A DNA stretch of 64,000 nucleotides from positions 1 to 64,000 of the forward strand of contig CANRGC010000007.1 of NCBI GenBank assembly GCA_947630045.1, read 5' to 3'. The notes below the pieces were generated by a model. That model did no database searches. It was not told the DNA's origin and saw nothing but the letters and a program-made list of their open reading frames with translations. Position 1 is the stretch's first letter. The number at the start of each line of letters is the position of its first letter. Shown here one piece after another: positions 40,904-51,132 of this stretch. A program made the translations under genes and the position numbers. This DNA is from Candidatus Gastranaerophilales bacterium (GTDB lineage Bacteria; Cyanobacteriota; Vampirovibrionia; Gastranaerophilales; Gastranaerophilaceae).

Positions 40904-41788
40904 TTAAAAACTTTTATGCAGCTTTATTGCCTCAATCATTCCACTCGGGTCAGCAATATTTTTTCCTTTAATGTCATATGCCGTTCCTGTCGGCGGGGAT
41001 GTTCTTATAACTTTAAGCCCGATTGTCGTATTCACGCATTTATCAAAACAAAGCGCCTTAATCGGGCACAGCCCCTGATCATGATACATTGTAATTACTG
41101 CGTCATACTCCTGTTTATTACCTTTAAGGTAATTTTTGCCGATTTTTCCAAAAAGACCGTCTGCGCTGTAAGGACCGTATGTCAAAATTCCGATTTCGTT
41201 TAATTTTTTAACTGCGGGAATTATTGTTGTAATTTCTTCATTTCCCAAAATGCCGTTTTCTCCGCAATGGGGGTTAAGCCCCGTGATTGCAATTTTCGGG
41301 TTTTTTATTTTGCATTTTTCAATTAAAAAATCGTTAAGCCTTTTTGTTTTTTCAATAATTAAATTTTCCGTAATTTTAATTTCCGCTAAAGGGCAGTGCC
41401 TTGTTAAAAGCATAACCCTTAAATCACCCGCAATAAAAAGCATTTCCGCTTTTTCGTCTTTTTTGGTTGACAGAAGTTTTTCTAAAATTTCTGTTTGCCC
41501 GCTGAAAAAATATCCCGATTTGTGGAGCGCCTCTTTTGAAACGGGAGCGGTTACAATTCCTTTAATTTTTCCTTCAAGCGCAAGTCTGCAAGCCGCTTCA
41601 AGGCTTTCATAACAAAACTTGCCGTTGTCTTTATCGTCAATTTCTATTGTGTCATAATTAAGACCTATATTTTTTCCGATAAGAATAACTTCATTTTTGT
41701 CCAAATTCAGCGCCTTTAGCGCCTTATAAGTTATTTCTTCTCCAACCCCCAAAAGGTCGCCCGTTGTTATTGCAATTTTATTTTTCAT
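40904..41788 (-). CDS. PdxA-like dehydrogenase (PdxA2 type likely)
   Basis: Metal- and NAD-dependent dehydrogenase/decarboxylase of the PdxA family. It has TTGDLLGVGEEI, GIVTAPVSKEALHKSG, and the three metal-binding His segments TRHCPLAEI, GLNPHCGENG and MYHDQGLCPIKAL. At 294 residues it is shorter than biosynthetic PdxA (about 330). It starts inside the end of a DUF1537 kinase gene (11-base overlap), the context of PdxA2, which oxidises 4-phospho-D-threonate or erythronate to a dihydroxyacetone-phosphate-level product. A biosynthetic role in vitamin B6 remains possible. Confidence 0.78.
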   Translation of the reverse strand: MKNKIAITTGDLLGVGEEITYKALKALNLDKNEVILIGKNIGLNYDTIEIDDKDNGKFCYESLEAACRLALEGKIKGIVTAPVSKEALHKSGYFFSGQTEILEKLLSTKKDEKAEMLFIAGDLRVMLLTRHCPLAEIKITENLIIEKTKRLNDFLIEKCKIKNPKIAITGLNPHCGENGILGNEEITTIIPAVKKLNEIGILTYGPYSADGLFGKIGKNYLKGNKQEYDAVITMYHDQGLCPIKALCFDKCVNTTIGLKVIRTSPPTGTAYDIKGKNIADPSGMIEAIKLHKSF

Positions 41789-43091
41789 GGTGTTTAAAAT
41801 AATTTATTATATCCGAAAGAGCGTTTGTTGAGCCCATATTGCCCGATTTTGTGACTATAAACTTTCCGTTTGAATCTACACATAAAGAAATTGCCGGCAA
41901 AATTCCGTCTATAACTTTTAAAAACCTGCAATCTATTGCCTTTGTACACTTATAAGAAGTTTCGCCGCCAAGTGTTATCATGACAAATTTTGCAGATTTG
42001 TTTAATTCATAGGCTATTTCAGACAAGAAATCGGTAATTTTAACTGCAAGAAGCTCTTTTGAAACCCCTTCGTCTATAAGCAATTCTTTTCCATGTTCAG
42101 AGTTTGCTTCCTCATCCAAATTACTTGCATGAATTACAACGACATTATCTTTGCCCAAATTTTGAACAATTCTGTTTGTCATGCCCTCTAAATCAGGTTT
42201 TAAAACGTCTGATAATTTTAAATCTATGAAATAACAATTTTCTATGTCATCATCAAGCGAAAGACGTTTAATTTGGGAATATGTAATTGAAGTTTTTGAG
42301 CCGGAGAGAATAACCTTGGGCAAAATCGGAATTTCTTTTTCAGCTTCGATTTCTTCTTTTCTGTCGAACCAAATTTGTGCAAATGCGTTGGCAAGACCCG
42401 CCGAACCTACGGGCAAAATTTTATACTGGCTTTTTTCAACAGCCAAAACTATTTGTTCCAAATCTACAAGAGAAACGGCGTCCACAACAATTAGCTTTTT
42501 GCCTTTTTCAATTAATTCATTTAACCTTGTTGTTATTTTAAGCGCCCCTTTTACAACCTCGTTAAATTTAATTGTGTCAATCGAATTATAAAGATTTTCG
42601 TTAACTTCCTTTTTCAAAATATTAGGAATATAAGAATCATAAATCGGGGCGTATGTATCTCTTGCAGCGTCTGTTCTCTCAATGGGCGTTCCTTTTAAAA
42701 GCTGATATCCGCCTATTGTAATTCTTCCTTCCTGAATAAAGGCGGGCGCAATAACGGCGGCATCAAAATCAATAGCGTCAAGCATTGCTAACACTTCCAC
42801 CGCAACATTTCCCCTTAATGTTGAATCAATTTTTTTGTAAAATTTTTCTATATGAAAATTTTCTTTTAAACGTTTTGAAGTTTCCCAAACTTTTTTAGCG
42901 GCAAACTTTGCGTCTTGATTTCTTGTTTCCGACGATAACGCAATAACTTCAACATCCGAATTAGCGCCAATAAAGTTATCGGGTTCAAATATAATTTCGG
43001 TGTTTGCACCCTTCATAAAAAATTGGAGCGCAGTATCGTTTGCCCCCGTAAGGTCATCTGCAACTACACCGACGGAACTTGTTATAGTCAT
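41778..43091 (-). CDS. DUF1537 four-carbon acid sugar kinase
   Basis: ATP-dependent kinase of 437 residues. The N-terminal substrate domain carries VGVVADDLTGANDTA and FYKKIDSTLRGNVAVE, and the C-terminal nucleotide domain carries VIHASNLDEE and LGGETSYKCT. Family members phosphorylate D-threonate, D-erythronate or related acids (DtnK, OtnK). The overlapping PdxA-like gene supports the threonate/erythronate route. The specific substrate cannot be told from sequence. It starts one base after ssb, with GAAGAGAA before the ATG. Confidence 0.85.
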   Translation of the reverse strand: MTITSSVGVVADDLTGANDTALQFFMKGANTEIIFEPDNFIGANSDVEVIALSSETRNQDAKFAAKKVWETSKRLKENFHIEKFYKKIDSTLRGNVAVEVLAMLDAIDFDAAVIAPAFIQEGRITIGGYQLLKGTPIERTDAARDTYAPIYDSYIPNILKKEVNENLYNSIDTIKFNEVVKGALKITTRLNELIEKGKKLIVVDAVSLVDLEQIVLAVEKSQYKILPVGSAGLANAFAQIWFDRKEEIEAEKEIPILPKVILSGSKTSITYSQIKRLSLDDDIENCYFIDLKLSDVLKPDLEGMTNRIVQNLGKDNVVVIHASNLDEEANSEHGKELLIDEGVSKELLAVKITDFLSEIAYELNKSAKFVMITLGGETSYKCTKAIDCRFLKVIDGILPAISLCVDSNGKFIVTKSGNMGSTNALSDIINYFKHHEK

Positions 43092-43092
43092 A

Positions 43093-43422
43093 TTAATTCT
43101 CTTCTTTTTTGGAACCTATTAATCTGATGTTGGAGCTTCTTATAAAATATCGTTCCAAATTTTCTCCGTCAGGGCTTGTCCATTTGCTTGAAGCAAGTCT
43201 TCCTTCAATTCCGACAAGAGCGCCTTTTTTAACCCATTCTCCGACAAATTCGGCTTGTTTATCCCAAGTTTCAATATTAAACCAGTCTGCGATTTCTTCT
43301 TTGGTTCTTGAATCCCACCTGTTTACGGCAACCGAAAAAGTTGTTTTAACTTTGCCTGAATCATAATATTTCATCTCGGGCGCTTGTCCCACACGTCCTA
43401 CAATTACAACCGAATTAACCAT
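43093..43422 (-). CDS. ssb: Single-stranded DNA-binding protein, tail-less
   Basis: OB-fold protein that coats single-stranded DNA. The start at 43422 (MVNSVVIVGRVG) is chosen because AGG inside an upstream ATGAGG gives a ribosome site 8 bases before it. This yields 109 residues: SVVIVGRVGQAPEMKYYDSG, FSVAVNRWDSR, DWFNIETWDKQAEF and GALVGIEGRLASSKW. The C-terminus ends SKKEEN, without the flexible linker and acidic DDIPF-type tip that recruits partners in most bacterial SSBs. It may be one of two SSB paralogues. Confidence 0.9.
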   Translation of the reverse strand: MVNSVVIVGRVGQAPEMKYYDSGKVKTTFSVAVNRWDSRTKEEIADWFNIETWDKQAEFVGEWVKKGALVGIEGRLASSKWTSPDGENLERYFIRSSNIRLIGSKKEEN

Positions 43423-43617
43423 AATTAGCCTCATTAAATTAGTTTTAAATTGATTATATAATTAACAAAAATCATGCGCAATCTTTTGTATAAAAGGAAA
43501 ACCGTTTTTTGTGTAGTTTTATTACAAAAATAAAAAAATATTTTAAAGTTTTTTTTAAAAATGCCGATTTGTTTTTTTGTAAGGGAAGACAATGTTTATT
43601 TAGAAAGCGAGGCTTCA

Positions 43618-44822: not shown

Positions 44823-45548
44823 ATGAAAGATACAATTGCTTTTTGGGGTTATCCGCACCCTGAATTAATCAAAAAAATAAAAGAAGAATATAAAAACGCA
44901 AAATGGCTTGATTTGGATATTGACTTCGGCGCAAAAAACTCCGGCATATTGCCCGAAAATTATTGTTCCGTTATGAAAAACATTTTTAATAATGCCATTT
45001 TGAACAAAGAAAAAATTATTAAAATTTTAGCGCCCGTGGGAAAAGATAAGTGCGATTGCGCCCTTTTTGCGGTTGAAATTTTAAAAGATTTGGGTTTTGA
45101 AATTGAAACCTCAGTTTTTGAAGAAAAAACTTATAAAAAGGAAAATTGCCCCATTTCAACAAGTTCGCTTCCTTTAAGGCAAAAAATCGAACTTATTACA
45201 AAAAACATAATAGAACAAAAAGACTATTCTCATCTTGAATATAAAGAGCCCACAGCCGCATTTTGGGGCGTTCCGCCAAACGACCTTTCAATTCTGGAAC
45301 TTTTTCCGAATACGACACATGTTCTCGGGTGGACAAGGTGTGTGGAAGCAATGGCGCCTTTTGATTTAGAGCTTGAGCAATATTGCATGGAAGGAATAAA
45401 AACAGTCTTTTTTGCTCAAACTTTTTGCGCCAAAAATGAGCTTGCAAAATATCTTGCAAATAAATATAACGGGCTTTATATTGATATGGACGGTTTTTCT
45501 TCAAATTCGACCAGAGCCAAAATTGAAGCTTTTTTGAGGTTAAGGTAA
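44823..45548 (+). CDS. Compact HgdB/HGD-D-like protein
   Basis: The 241-residue protein resembles the C-terminal half of the D-component of 2-hydroxyacyl-CoA dehydratases and related [Fe-S] proteins: TVFFAQTFCAKNELAKYL, then LYIDMDGFSSNSTRAKIEAFL, matching the pattern FC...D...gQ..TRIEAF. Seven Cys (48, 77, 79, 109, 173, 188, 202) could ligate a cluster. The AFWG motif occurs twice (about 6-9 and 146-149), suggesting two related halves. At 241 residues it is much smaller than canonical members (about 380-430). It overlaps the ASKHA ATPase by one base. Confidence 0.5.
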   Translation: MKDTIAFWGYPHPELIKKIKEEYKNAKWLDLDIDFGAKNSGILPENYCSVMKNIFNNAILNKEKIIKILAPVGKDKCDCALFAVEILKDLGFEIETSVFEEKTYKKENCPISTSSLPLRQKIELITKNIIEQKDYSHLEYKEPTAAFWGVPPNDLSILELFPNTTHVLGWTRCVEAMAPFDLELEQYCMEGIKTVFFAQTFCAKNELAKYLANKYNGLYIDMDGFSSNSTRAKIEAFLRLR

Positions 45549-46207
45549 TGACAAAATATTTTTTAGACGCAGGAACAACTTGGAGCAAAATTTTAAAAGT
45601 TGAAGAAAACGAAAAAGAATATTCCGTTATAAAAACACGTGACTTAAAAAATCTTAATATTGAGTTTGAAATTTCAACAGGTCACTCGGGCAAATTCGGA
45701 AAAAATTATGAAAATGAAGTTGTTGCGCTCTCATACGGCGCAAAAAGATATAATGACGGGGTTATTCTTGATTTAGGGTCAAGGGATGCAAAGTGGATAA
45801 AGTTTAATGACGGAAAATTTCAGGATATGGACTGGAACAATAACTGCGCAAGCGCAACGGGCGCAACGATAGAAATGCTTTTAAAATTTTATGATGTTGA
45901 AGTTGAAAAATTAATTCCGACAAAAGAAAAATATTCAGTGACCTGTGGAATATTCGGGCTTGAAAAAATTATGGATGATATTTCAAACGGGGTTTCGCCG
46001 AACCTTGCAATTTCAAAATTCATAACGGGAATTGCATATAACGCCTATAATTTCACGAAAAAACCCAATAAAATCTATTTATCAGGCGGCTTTTGCGAAA
46101 ATAAATGTTTTGTCGAGTCTTTAAAATTATTCACTGAAGTGGTTCTTTTGGGCAGATATATGCTTGTGGAAGGGCTTTATAATATTTATCTTTCCCAAAC
46201 AAAATAA
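45548..46207 (+). CDS. HgdC/BadF-type ATPase activator
   Basis: ASKHA-fold ATPase of 219 residues related to HgdC, which uses ATP to push an electron from its own [4Fe-4S] cluster into a dehydratase or reductase partner. Motifs are DAGTTWSKIL (phosphate 1), VILDLGSRDAKWI (connect), NNCASATGATIEML and IYLSGGFCENK (adenosine). Two family Cys, 100 and 133, are present where HgdC binds its cluster at the dimer interface. The gene is translationally coupled to the upstream HgdB-like gene (TAATG). The reaction is unknown. Confidence 0.72.
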   Translation: MTKYFLDAGTTWSKILKVEENEKEYSVIKTRDLKNLNIEFEISTGHSGKFGKNYENEVVALSYGAKRYNDGVILDLGSRDAKWIKFNDGKFQDMDWNNNCASATGATIEMLLKFYDVEVEKLIPTKEKYSVTCGIFGLEKIMDDISNGVSPNLAISKFITGIAYNAYNFTKKPNKIYLSGGFCENKCFVESLKLFTEVVLLGRYMLVEGLYNIYLSQTK

Positions 46208-47236: not shown

Positions 47237-48571
47237 ATGAAGAAATTCCCCGTGCTTTTCGTGTTGATTTTTCTTGCCATGCCGGCTTTTTGTGCAAATG
47301 CGGAACAAAAAACAAATATGCTTTATGACATAAACATTAAGTGGTTTGAAAATTTCAACGATGAAATTTTAATGAAATATTTATATGAGGCACTGGAAAA
47401 CAATAAAGACGTTACAATTGCAAGAAAAAATATTCTAAAATACAGACAGGATAAGAATATCGAACTTTCAAAAGAGTTTCCATACATTGGGGTTGGGGCA
47501 AATTATCTGCTTTTAAAAGTCCCCCAGCTTGCGATACCTGATAATGACATTCAGACAAACAGCTTTGCTCTGCCGTTTTTGACCGTTTGGGAAATTGACT
47601 ATCTGGGCAAAAAGCACGACTCGGTTAAAAAAGCCCGTTTGGATATGGAAAATTCCCTTTTTGATTGGAAATCTTCAAGGCTGATTGTATCGGTAGATCT
47701 TGCAAGCGCTTATTTCAACGTTTCAAACTTAAATAAACAAATCTCGCTTCAACAAAAAATTTACAACCTTTCAGAGGAAATTTTTAAAAGAAAAAAGAAA
47801 ATGTTTGAGTTCGGAACAATTTCCACTTCAGAGCTGAATAATTCTTATGACCTTGTGTTGTCCGCAAAAAACGATTTAAACGTTCTTGAAAAACAAAAAG
47901 AGGCTTTTTTGACCCAAATTGCCTATTTAAGGGGAATAAGCCCGTATAATATTAATGACATTGATATATCCGAGTTTGACAAAATAAATTTTACGGGAAC
48001 TTACCCCGTTTCTTTTAAGGGGGATGTCATTTTAAACCGTCCCGACATTTTAAAGCTGGATTGTGAAATAAAAAAGGCAAAACTCGACATTACAATTGCA
48101 AAAAAAGACTTTCTGCCTTCGATTAACGTTTTTGGAATTTTGACTTTTTCAACCATTTTGCAAAGTTTTAATTGGAATACTGCCCTTGCGGCGCTTTCAG
48201 TCGGTGCAACACAGACAATTTTTGACGGCGGAAAGAAAATTTTTAATTTAAAAAAGCAAAAAATTAAATATGATATTGCGCTTGAAAACTATTTAAAAAC
48301 TGATATTTCAGCGCTGAAAGAAGTCAATGATACCCTATATTCATTGAAAAAAGATTTAGAAACTTACAAAAATAATAAAGAGCGCCTTGAAATAGCCCGT
48401 TCAAACTTCGTTAACGTCTTTAAATCTTATGACAAGGGGGTTAAAAGCTATGTTGATTATATGGCGGAAAATTCAAGCTATATAAGAAAAGAAAGCGAAC
48501 TTCAAAATTCAAAAAATCAAAATTTTATAAACCTGTTGAGCGTATATAAAGCGACAGGCGGGGCGTTATAG
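47237..48571 (+). CDS. TolC-type outer-membrane efflux protein
   Basis: Outer-membrane channel of 444 residues that connects to a periplasmic adaptor. A signal peptide (MKKFPVLFVLIFLAMPAFCA) is followed by two OEP repeats of long helices (about 30-230 and 235-440) with KARLDMENSLFDWKSSRLIVSVDLASAYF and LKEVNDTLYSLKKDLETYKNNKERLEIARSNF. There is no lipobox. AAAGG precedes the ATG. The adaptor gene follows at once, so the five genes to 53374 form one pump operon. Confidence 0.9.
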   Translation: MKKFPVLFVLIFLAMPAFCANAEQKTNMLYDINIKWFENFNDEILMKYLYEALENNKDVTIARKNILKYRQDKNIELSKEFPYIGVGANYLLLKVPQLAIPDNDIQTNSFALPFLTVWEIDYLGKKHDSVKKARLDMENSLFDWKSSRLIVSVDLASAYFNVSNLNKQISLQQKIYNLSEEIFKRKKKMFEFGTISTSELNNSYDLVLSAKNDLNVLEKQKEAFLTQIAYLRGISPYNINDIDISEFDKINFTGTYPVSFKGDVILNRPDILKLDCEIKKAKLDITIAKKDFLPSINVFGILTFSTILQSFNWNTALAALSVGATQTIFDGGKKIFNLKKQKIKYDIALENYLKTDISALKEVNDTLYSLKKDLETYKNNKERLEIARSNFVNVFKSYDKGVKSYVDYMAENSSYIRKESELQNSKNQNFINLLSVYKATGGAL

Positions 48572-49435
48572 ATGAAAAAGAAAATTTTAATTCTTTTAAT
48601 AATTCTTCTTGTTGCGTTTTTAATCTGGTTTTTCTTTTTCAAAAAGAAAAATGATTCGGACATAATTCTTTACGGAAATATCGAAATAAGGCAGTCAGAT
48701 TTGAGCTTCAGGGTTTCAGGAAGGCTTGTAAAGCTTTATGCCGAAGAAGGAGATGAAGTTGGTGAGGGCGATTTGCTTGCCGAGATTGAACCTGACACTT
48801 ATAAAACGGCTCTAAGCGAAGCTAAGGCAATTCTTCGGGAAAAAAGAGCAAATAAATATAAAAAAGAAGAAACCTACAGGCTGAATTACCCGCTTTGCGC
48901 CGATTTTACCATTTCAAAAGAGGAGTGTTTAAATTTAAAGAGAGATATGGAATTTGCTCAGGGGGAATATGACGAAGCTAAGTCAGTGCTTGAAAAATCG
49001 CTTATAAATTTGGACGACACTAAGCTATATGCGCCATACAGAGGAATTATTTTATCAAGAATTACGGAAAAAGGAACAATTCTTGACACAAAAACGCCGG
49101 TTTATTCAATTTCAATGATAGAGCCCGTTTGGGTGAGAGCTTTTATTGACGAGCCAAAGCTGGGGCGGGTAAAACTCGGACAGAAGGCTCTTGTTTATAC
49201 TGATTCAAGACCAAAAGACCCATACTTTGCCCATGTGGGTTTTGTTTCTCCCGTTGCGGAATTTACACCAAAAACCGTGGAAACAAACACGCTTCGGGCA
49301 GATTTGGTTTACAGATTGAGAATAATTATTGACAATCCCGATTATTATTTAAGACAGGGAATGCCAGTCACCATAAAGCTTTTGGAAGAAACCTCGGATA
49401 AAAATGCTTCTTATGAGGAGAAAATTCAACAATGA
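48572..49435 (+). CDS. HlyD-family membrane fusion protein (YbhG type)
   Basis: Periplasmic adaptor of 287 residues anchored by one N-terminal helix (LLIILLVAFLIWFFFF). The biotinyl-lipoyl-like domain is split by a helical hairpin: FRVSGRLVKLYAEEGDEVGEGDLLAEIEP and LYAPYRGIILSRITEKGTILD, then a beta-barrel domain. It bridges the ABC exporter and TolC. It starts directly after the TolC stop and overlaps the ATPase gene by 4 bases. Confidence 0.9.
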   Translation: MKKKILILLIILLVAFLIWFFFFKKKNDSDIILYGNIEIRQSDLSFRVSGRLVKLYAEEGDEVGEGDLLAEIEPDTYKTALSEAKAILREKRANKYKKEETYRLNYPLCADFTISKEECLNLKRDMEFAQGEYDEAKSVLEKSLINLDDTKLYAPYRGIILSRITEKGTILDTKTPVYSISMIEPVWVRAFIDEPKLGRVKLGQKALVYTDSRPKDPYFAHVGFVSPVAEFTPKTVETNTLRADLVYRLRIIIDNPDYYLRQGMPVTIKLLEETSDKNASYEEKIQQ

Positions 49436-51132
49436 ACGAACTTTTGGTTGTAAAAAACTTAAACAAGACTTTTGTCGGGGAAAAAAATTCTTCCATATCA
49501 AACATTTCTTTTAATTTAAAAGAAGGCGAGAAACTTTCTCTGATTGGTCCGGACGGGGCGGGAAAAACAACCCTGTTAAGGCTTTTATCAGGTTTGTTAT
49601 TGCCTGACGGAATTTGCGAAAACAAAGAAAATTCCCCCGTTTATATTTCGGGTTTTTCGCCATATTCAAACCTTAATGAGGTTAAAAAATTAATCGGTTA
49701 TATGCCTCAAAGGTTTGGTTTATATGAAGATTTAACAGTTATGGAAAATTTGGAACTTTATGCCGATTTAAAAAATATTGAAAAATCAAAAAGAGAGGAG
49801 CTTTTTGAAACCCTTTTAAAATTTTCGGGGCTTGCGGACTTTACAAAAAGAACCGCAGGAGCGCTTTCCGGAGGAATGAAACAAAAACTCGGGCTTTCTT
49901 GCACCCTTTTGTCACGCCCCAAAATTCTTTTTTTGGATGAACCTTCCGTCGGGGTTGACCCCGTTTCAAGACGAGATTTAATTGAAATAACGGAAAAATT
50001 AGCGCATGAAAATAAAATCGGGGTTATTTGGGCAACAAGCTATCTTGATGAGGCGAAATTTTTCAAAAACTACCTTTTGCTTGATGAGGGAAGGAAAATT
50101 TCTCAAGGGTGCGTTTCAGACACCGAAAAATCTATGAAAGGGCTGGTTTTTTATTCGGGGAATAAATCTGATAAAAAGAGAACTTTTTTAAATAAAATTT
50201 TAAAAGACGAATACGGCATAACAGACGCAACCATTGAAGGAGACAGAGTAAGAACCGTTTTTAAAGATTTAGTTTCGGCTCAAAATTTTCCTTTTGATAA
50301 AGAAGAAACCGAACCCGTTTTTGAAGATTTTATAATGTATACCTTTAAAGATAAAAAACACAAAATTGACGAAAGTGTTCGGAATATTGAAGTTTCTCCG
50401 CCGGATAATATCGCAATAGAGGCAATCGGGCTTACAAAAAGGTACGGAAATTTTATTGCGGCGAATAATATAAGTTTTAAAGTTAAAAAAGGGGAAATTT
50501 TCGGGCTTTTAGGTCCGAACGGAGCGGGGAAATCAACAACATTCAAGATGTTATGTTCTTTAATTAAGCCAACGGAAGGTAAATCAACGATTTTTGGTTT
50601 CGATATTCAAAAACAACCTCAGGAAGCCAAAAAAAATTTCGGGTATATGGCGCAAAAATTTTCGCTTTTCGGGAACTTAAGCGTAAGGCAAAACGTTGAA
50701 TTTTTTATGGGGGTGTATAACGTTAAACGGTCTGTACAAGAGGTTATAAAGGGCTATGACCTTGAAAAATATATAAATCGCAATGCTTCAAGCCTTCCTC
50801 TGGGTTATAAACAGCGGCTTGCCCTTTGTTGCGCCCTTGTGCATGATCCGCCCGTTTTGTTTTTGGATGAGCCCACATCAGGGGTTGACCCCGTTATAAG
50901 AAGGGAATTTTGGATGAGAATAAATAACCTTGTTAAACATAAAACGTCCGTGCTTGTAACAACACACTTTATGGATGAAGCACAGTTTTGTGACAAAATT
51001 GCTCTTTGTTATAAAGGAAAAATTCTTGTCACAGACACCCCTGACAACCTTAAAAACTCTGTCAAATCGGAAAAACTAAAACATCCTTCAATGGAAGACG
51101 CTTTCATTGAAATAATAAGGAGAGCTTCTTGA
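49432..51132 (+). CDS. Dual-domain ABC ATPase (YbhF type)
   Basis: Cytoplasmic ATPase of 566 residues with two fused nucleotide-binding domains. The first (about 1-225) has Walker A GPDGAGKTTLLRL, signature GALSGGMKQKLGL and Walker B ILFLDEPSVGVDP. The second (about 325-560) has GPNGAGKSTTFKM and VLFLDEPTSGVDP, with a degenerate signature (SLPLGYKQRLAL) in place of LSGGQ. It powers two ABC-2 permeases downstream. The pattern matches YbhF of the YbhFSR cationic-drug exporter, though the substrate here is unknown. Confidence 0.92.
   Translation: MNELLVVKNLNKTFVGEKNSSISNISFNLKEGEKLSLIGPDGAGKTTLLRLLSGLLLPDGICENKENSPVYISGFSPYSNLNEVKKLIGYMPQRFGLYEDLTVMENLELYADLKNIEKSKREELFETLLKFSGLADFTKRTAGALSGGMKQKLGLSCTLLSRPKILFLDEPSVGVDPVSRRDLIEITEKLAHENKIGVIWATSYLDEAKFFKNYLLLDEGRKISQGCVSDTEKSMKGLVFYSGNKSDKKRTFLNKILKDEYGITDATIEGDRVRTVFKDLVSAQNFPFDKEETEPVFEDFIMYTFKDKKHKIDESVRNIEVSPPDNIAIEAIGLTKRYGNFIAANNISFKVKKGEIFGLLGPNGAGKSTTFKMLCSLIKPTEGKSTIFGFDIQKQPQEAKKNFGYMAQKFSLFGNLSVRQNVEFFMGVYNVKRSVQEVIKGYDLEKYINRNASSLPLGYKQRLALCCALVHDPPVLFLDEPTSGVDPVIRREFWMRINNLVKHKTSVLVTTHFMDEAQFCDKIALCYKGKILVTDTPDNLKNSVKSEKLKHPSMEDAFIEIIRRAS

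Follow-up and report, generated by a model that had tools for sequence, protein, structure and literature searches.

What reaction is carried out by a cysteine-rich protein of 241 residues, here called D, whose gene runs directly into that of a putative activase, A, of only 219? Archerase systems perform reductions that are among the most demanding in biology. To our knowledge few kinds have been characterised: the dehydratases, the benzoyl-CoA reductases, and the double-cubane-cluster protein DCCP. The pair lies in a 64,000-nucleotide window (the whole stretch of DNA analysed) from a member of the Gastranaerophilales, non-photosynthetic, gut-dwelling relatives of cyanobacteria; the genome comprises 1.70 Mb in 29 contigs. 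The original prediction, made from the letters of the window, saw in the pair a stripped-down, ATP-driven low-potential reductase with an HgdB-like and an HgdC-like component. The two genes are as follows.

Gene D: 44823 to 45548, plus strand; 241 amino acids; predicted minimal HGD-D-fold protein (open reading frame and AlphaFold2 model).
Gene A: 45548 to 46207, plus strand; 219 amino acids; predicted small HgdC-type ASKHA activase (open reading frame, TIGR00241, profile, and fold).

Both reading frames are present as first described, coupled through the stop/start sequence TAATG and overlapping by one base. Purifying selection acts on both (pN/pS 0.26-0.34 in comparison with congeners), and this excludes a decayed gene or a spurious reading frame; together with the recurrence of the pair in tens of genomes, this selection argues that the arrangement is not a product of chance. 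The observation itself is confirmed. No Rfam element was found near the two genes, and neither matched a defence family.

Sequence and structural model place A as an HgdC-type member of the wider activase family. It matches TIGR00241 (E 3.5e-15), with 56.2 bits against a cut-off of 125.4; its profile matches HgdC (1.4e-13), HadI, and DCCP-R; and its predicted structure (pLDDT 91.3) finds its best fold matches in HadI (Foldseek 4.3e-15), MbdQ, DCCP-R, and HgdC. One distant homologue passes Pfam PF01869, and weak matches extend to the methanogenesis marker 15 activase family. Four cysteines distinguish the sequence.

A Cys100: 45845 to 45847, plus strand; predicted ligand of a subunit-bridging [4Fe-4S] cluster; context NNNCASATG; invariant.
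A Cys133: 45944 to 45946, plus strand; predicted ligand of the subunit-bridging [4Fe-4S] cluster; context TCGIFGLEK; invariant.
A Cys183 and Cys187: 46094 to 46108, plus strand; SGGFCENKC in the adenosine-motif region; hallmark of the small activases in the alignment.

Cys100 and Cys133 share alignment columns with cysteines of all ten other activases examined, including the cluster ligands of HgdC and HadI, just as the original prediction supposed. The second pair is peculiar to the small activases: Cys183 is present in 49 of 49 and Cys187 in 46 of 49, and both are absent from the ten others. Likewise, GSRD replaces the phosphate motif GGQD in all 21 small activases aligned, and occurs in none of the ten (one of which departs from GGQD in a different way). 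These 21 sequences form one group on a long stem when set beside the ten. Hence A combines a modelled ASKHA fold and two cluster cysteines per subunit, both marks of an archerase, with a TIGR00241 score below the cut-off and no GGQD. Solved activases span 243-276 residues.

The case for D comes from structure. A model built from 41 orthologues (pLDDT 93.6, pTM 0.90) consists of two four-stranded α/β domains, the fold of the HGD-D superfamily; the helical intermediate domain is missing, and a single helix (118-131) connects the halves, where BzdNO has three. A Foldseek search of the PDB returned three matches below E 1e-3, all of them HGD-D proteins: HadC (3o3m_B, E 9.1e-7, TM 0.61 by query length) and MbdN (9g87_B and 9gai_B). 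The original prediction had staked itself beforehand on such a fold. It had also noted a C-terminal pattern like that of the dehydratase D-component, and this segment (FC...D...S..AKIEAF) indeed aligns with the HGD-D C-terminus. As foreseen too, both proteins are far smaller than characterised relatives; the HadC chain, for example, has about 385 residues.

Sequence comparison sees little of this relationship. Searches of Pfam, NCBIfam, and PDB sequences, with single sequences and with profiles, gave D only chance-level matches, among them PUB, shikimate kinase, FolC, and the like, which were discarded as relatives. The NCBIfam dehydratase models found no match. In the HMM comparison proposed at the outset, the HGD-D model PF06050 gave weak matches in 4 of 41 D members (best E 0.026, below the cut-off), whereas the double_cubane model NF040772 matches E. 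coli YjiM and not D. Profile-profile comparison of D with a 16-member HGD-D set, local and global, detected no homology, shuffled profiles scoring equally high. The proposed homology of D to HGD-D proteins rests on three things: the modelled fold; the register of its cysteines; and its partner.

D contains seven cysteines (48, 77, 79, 109, 173, 188, and 202), and the original prediction envisaged a cluster at all seven. Conservation across 56 D sequences narrows the candidates.

D Cys48: 44964 to 44966, plus strand; predicted cluster ligand, equivalent to BzdN Cys73; invariant (56 of 56); aligned also with cysteines masked as alanine.
D Cys77: 45051 to 45053, plus strand; predicted cluster ligand, equivalent to BzdN Cys100; invariant (56 of 56); aligned also with cysteines masked as alanine.
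D Cys202: 45426 to 45428, plus strand; predicted cluster ligand, equivalent to BzdN Cys327; invariant (56 of 56); aligned also with cysteines masked as alanine.
D Cys173: 45339 to 45341, plus strand; nearly invariant, with no essential role predicted; 46 of 56 sequences have Cys here, nine have Ala, and one has Gly.

The remaining three (Cys79, Cys109, and Cys188) vary, so a seven-cysteine site is not supported; the conservation of the key cysteines, named in advance as a second decisive check, holds. Cys48, Cys77, and Cys202 persist even in the distant relatives at loci L096 and L097. Under three MAFFT strategies they coincide with ligand columns in 15 of the 16 HGD-D proteins aligned, in register with the ligands of HadC, BzdN, and DCCP; the lone exception is a Fusobacterium subunit that itself lacks the cysteine. 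The register survives conversion of every cysteine to alanine (16, 15-16, and 16 of 16 with the three strategies); with conversion to X, it holds at two of the three positions in two strategies, and the third strategy largely loses it. Of 25 column shuffles, none brought all three D cysteines onto ligand columns. Each of the three, moreover, lies just ahead of a helix in the model (49-60, 78-89, and 205-214), as in BzdN. The BzdN double cubane is held by Cys73, Cys100, and Cys327 together with Cys36, Cys263, and Cys293, and the BzdO counterparts Cys95, Cys128, and Cys380 are the three ligands of a [4Fe-4S]-OH2 site (PMC11971306). D thus retains the three cluster-binding cysteines that HGD-D proteins hold at conserved positions, and on its model it is a member of this fold superfamily.

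Do D and A belong together? Of 146 genomes sampled across the family, 75 carry D, and these represent 28 of 41 genera. D was also found in three other families of the order, and a relative occurs in a lone genome from a different class of the phylum (locus L097). A pattern scan with one protein, covering 84,980 species and reaching close relatives only, returned 13 loci, 11 of them from Gastranaerophilales or Galligastranaerophilus; the D profile was run within the phylum and on viral contigs. No relatives appeared in those viral contigs, nor in plasmids searched with a single relative as query. Within the 146 genomes, a small-activase profile matches exactly the 75 that carry D; the remaining 71 give no match. 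As a rule D and A overlap or are separated by a few bases, with varying outer neighbours, but in ten of the 75 genomes, from four genera, they sit on different contigs with no partner adjoining; in two of these genera the carriers are unlinked and the non-carriers lack both genes. Such joint presence and joint absence, extending to unlinked lineages, indicates that D and A work together. Their distance matrices are correlated (Mantel r 0.72, reached by none of 2000 permutations), part of which reflects shared ancestry. The partnership is dedicated and probably obligate. In one genome a single D gene is accompanied by two small activase genes, which lie on separate contigs.

A second, longer activase is present in all 60 genomes tested, whether or not D is there; the small one was found in every one of the 30 genomes with D and in none of the 30 that lack it. 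The idea that the universal longer activase serves D was rejected on this ground. The longer protein (335 residues, above the TIGR00241 cut-off, with a rubrerythrin gene adjoining) falls outside the small clade. With two DUF2229 proteins of the window genome, which are full-size, match Pfam DUF2229, and have HGD-D-like C-termini, it makes up another, putative archerase-type system, apparently universal in the family (L103:454-1461, L103:7483-8526, and L104:5531-6685, on contigs C12 and C4). This set resembles the D-A pair in joining an activase to HGD-D-related proteins.

The surroundings of the pair say little about its substrate. A survey of D-A loci revealed no conserved functional partner, and where A no longer adjoins D the neighbours are unrelated. 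In about 15 loci, from about a dozen genera, a GltP-like symporter of the glutamate/aspartate type directly precedes D (one GltP/DctA-type example is at L044:1656-2984). Since 143 of 146 genomes have this symporter, with or without D, it is near-universal in the family and a weak lead to the substrate. An SNF2-helicase-like gene, a neighbour in six loci, is, like the symporter, a lineage-specific neighbour. In the window, judging from translations only, an apparent efflux operon lies downstream of the pair (47237-51132, with genes for an outer-membrane factor like TolC, an adaptor of the HlyD type, and a product carrying two ABC-ATPase domains), and a four-carbon acid sugar kinase-like gene of the DUF1537 type occupies 41778-43091 on the minus strand, with an ssb-like gene following at 43093-43434. 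No such pair was found described for Melainabacteria or Gastranaerophilales in the literature searched, many journals lying outside that search.

These findings suggest a model in which D and A are an autonomous archerase-reductase pair acting on a non-CoA substrate or a protein client; we consider this the probable explanation. A would be a homodimeric archerase, with one [4Fe-4S] cluster held between the subunits by Cys100 and Cys133 of each. It would take an electron from ferredoxin or flavodoxin and, driven by ATP, push it at very low potential into D. Archerases are described as homodimers in which an ATP-driven conformational change delivers a low-potential electron to the partner (PMC11574389); that A would do so for D is suggested by its family and by its perfect co-occurrence with D. 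D is probably a homodimer, as DCCP is. Each subunit would hold one [4Fe-4S] cluster in the cleft between the two α/β domains, bound by Cys48, Cys77, and Cys202, with one iron open and free for substrate, as in the catalytic HadB and BzdO subunits. The substrate is most likely not a CoA thioester, since D lacks the helical domain that contributes to the CoA channel and the two genes stand by themselves. Candidates are small polar metabolites and the cofactors or clusters of other proteins.

The nearest known systems leave room for a different reading, in which the D homodimer is a miniaturised 2-hydroxyacyl-CoA dehydratase or benzoyl-CoA-type reductase and acts on a small CoA thioester in fermentation. 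The dehydratases (HadBC with HadI; HgdAB with HgdC) share with the pair the HGD-D fold, the [4Fe-4S] site of three cysteines, and an HgdC-type activase with two cluster cysteines; the class I benzoyl-CoA reductases (BzdNO/PQ and MbdONPQ) share the fold, the proximal ligands, and an ASKHA activase. HadC is the best structural match to D, whose ligand set is that of the open site in HadB and BzdO, and the symporter found ahead of D in some loci counts in favour of this reading as well. Yet dehydratases have two different HGD-D subunits, a helical intermediate domain, and CoA-transferase genes, whereas D lacks that domain, is encoded by one subunit gene, and escapes the dehydratase family models; benzoyl-CoA reductases have two different catalytic subunits, the BzdN double cubane, and a CoA channel, none of which is found in D. 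The intermediate helical domain has a role in the CoA channel of BzdNO (PMC11971306). As first claimed, neither a CoA-transferase nor a second dehydratase subunit lies beside the pair. Neither D nor any other protein of the window genome exceeded the HGD-D cut-off, and the two DUF2229-type proteins lie elsewhere in that genome; CaiB/BaiF CoA-transferase was found in 0 of 60 genomes; and CoA_trans is absent from the window genome and shows no association with D elsewhere (15 of 30 D-positive and 9 of 30 D-negative genomes). The missing channel domain, the single subunit gene, and these CoA-transferase absences disfavour a classical dehydratase pathway, and the symporter is present regardless of D. 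We regard this reading as unlikely.

Somewhat more doubtful is the proposal that D and A form a maintenance or activation system, passing low-potential electrons to another enzyme whose gene lies elsewhere (a corrinoid protein, for instance, or some Fe-S enzyme). The portability of the pair and its lack of an operon partner suit a helper that works in trans, and methanogenesis marker 15 is among the activase families related, through weak matches, to A; no client was found, however, and a client would have to share the 75/71 distribution.

A double-cubane reductase like DCCP or YjiM, the comparison first ventured, is very improbable despite a similar two-gene organisation with its own activase and no adjoining CoA pathway genes (as in yjiM-yjiL), a probable homodimer, the relationship of A to DCCP-R, and the position of Cys173 near one distal ligand (by eye): of the six cysteines that bind the [8Fe-9S] cluster, D has the three proximal ones, but an invariant glycine (Gly9) occupies its first distal position, nothing corresponds to the third distal cysteine, 10 of the 56 sequences do without Cys173 and have Ala or Gly there, the double_cubane model passes D over, and D is about 140 residues shorter than YjiM (383 residues). 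Indeed, on the defining features tested, D is outside the named dehydratase, benzoyl-CoA reductase, and double-cubane families.

The autonomous pair with a non-CoA substrate or protein client has points against it as well: with GSRD where other activases have GGQD, the ATPase cycle of A is unproven; the role of the CoA-transferase could fall to a CoA ligase, or CoA could have a new mode of binding; profile-profile comparison is null for D; and the neighbourhood gives no clue to the substrate. Even so, the stripped-down ATP-driven low-potential reductase of the original prediction is still the best reading, and model and sequence together favour an HgdB-like/HgdC-like pair. An archerase with an HGD-D acceptor is a known kind of system, of which the D-A pair is most likely a new, minimal version; that its substrate is new is plausible. 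Taken in full, the proposal is a bolder one, and is offered tentatively, as a serious possibility: D-A may be the smallest archerase-driven reductase known. It would then represent a new branch of the HGD-D fold, one that has abandoned CoA-thioester chemistry and uses ATP to reduce, at low potential, a metabolite or protein cofactor in gut Gastranaerophilales.

If so, a two-gene version of 460 residues, free of CoA-channel and double-cubane parts, would define the minimal machine, and one easy to express and to mutate. The joint presence and joint loss of D and A, even where the genes are unlinked, makes their partnership directly testable. Such a machine would also give a biochemical function to a pair present in about half of the sampled genomes of the family.
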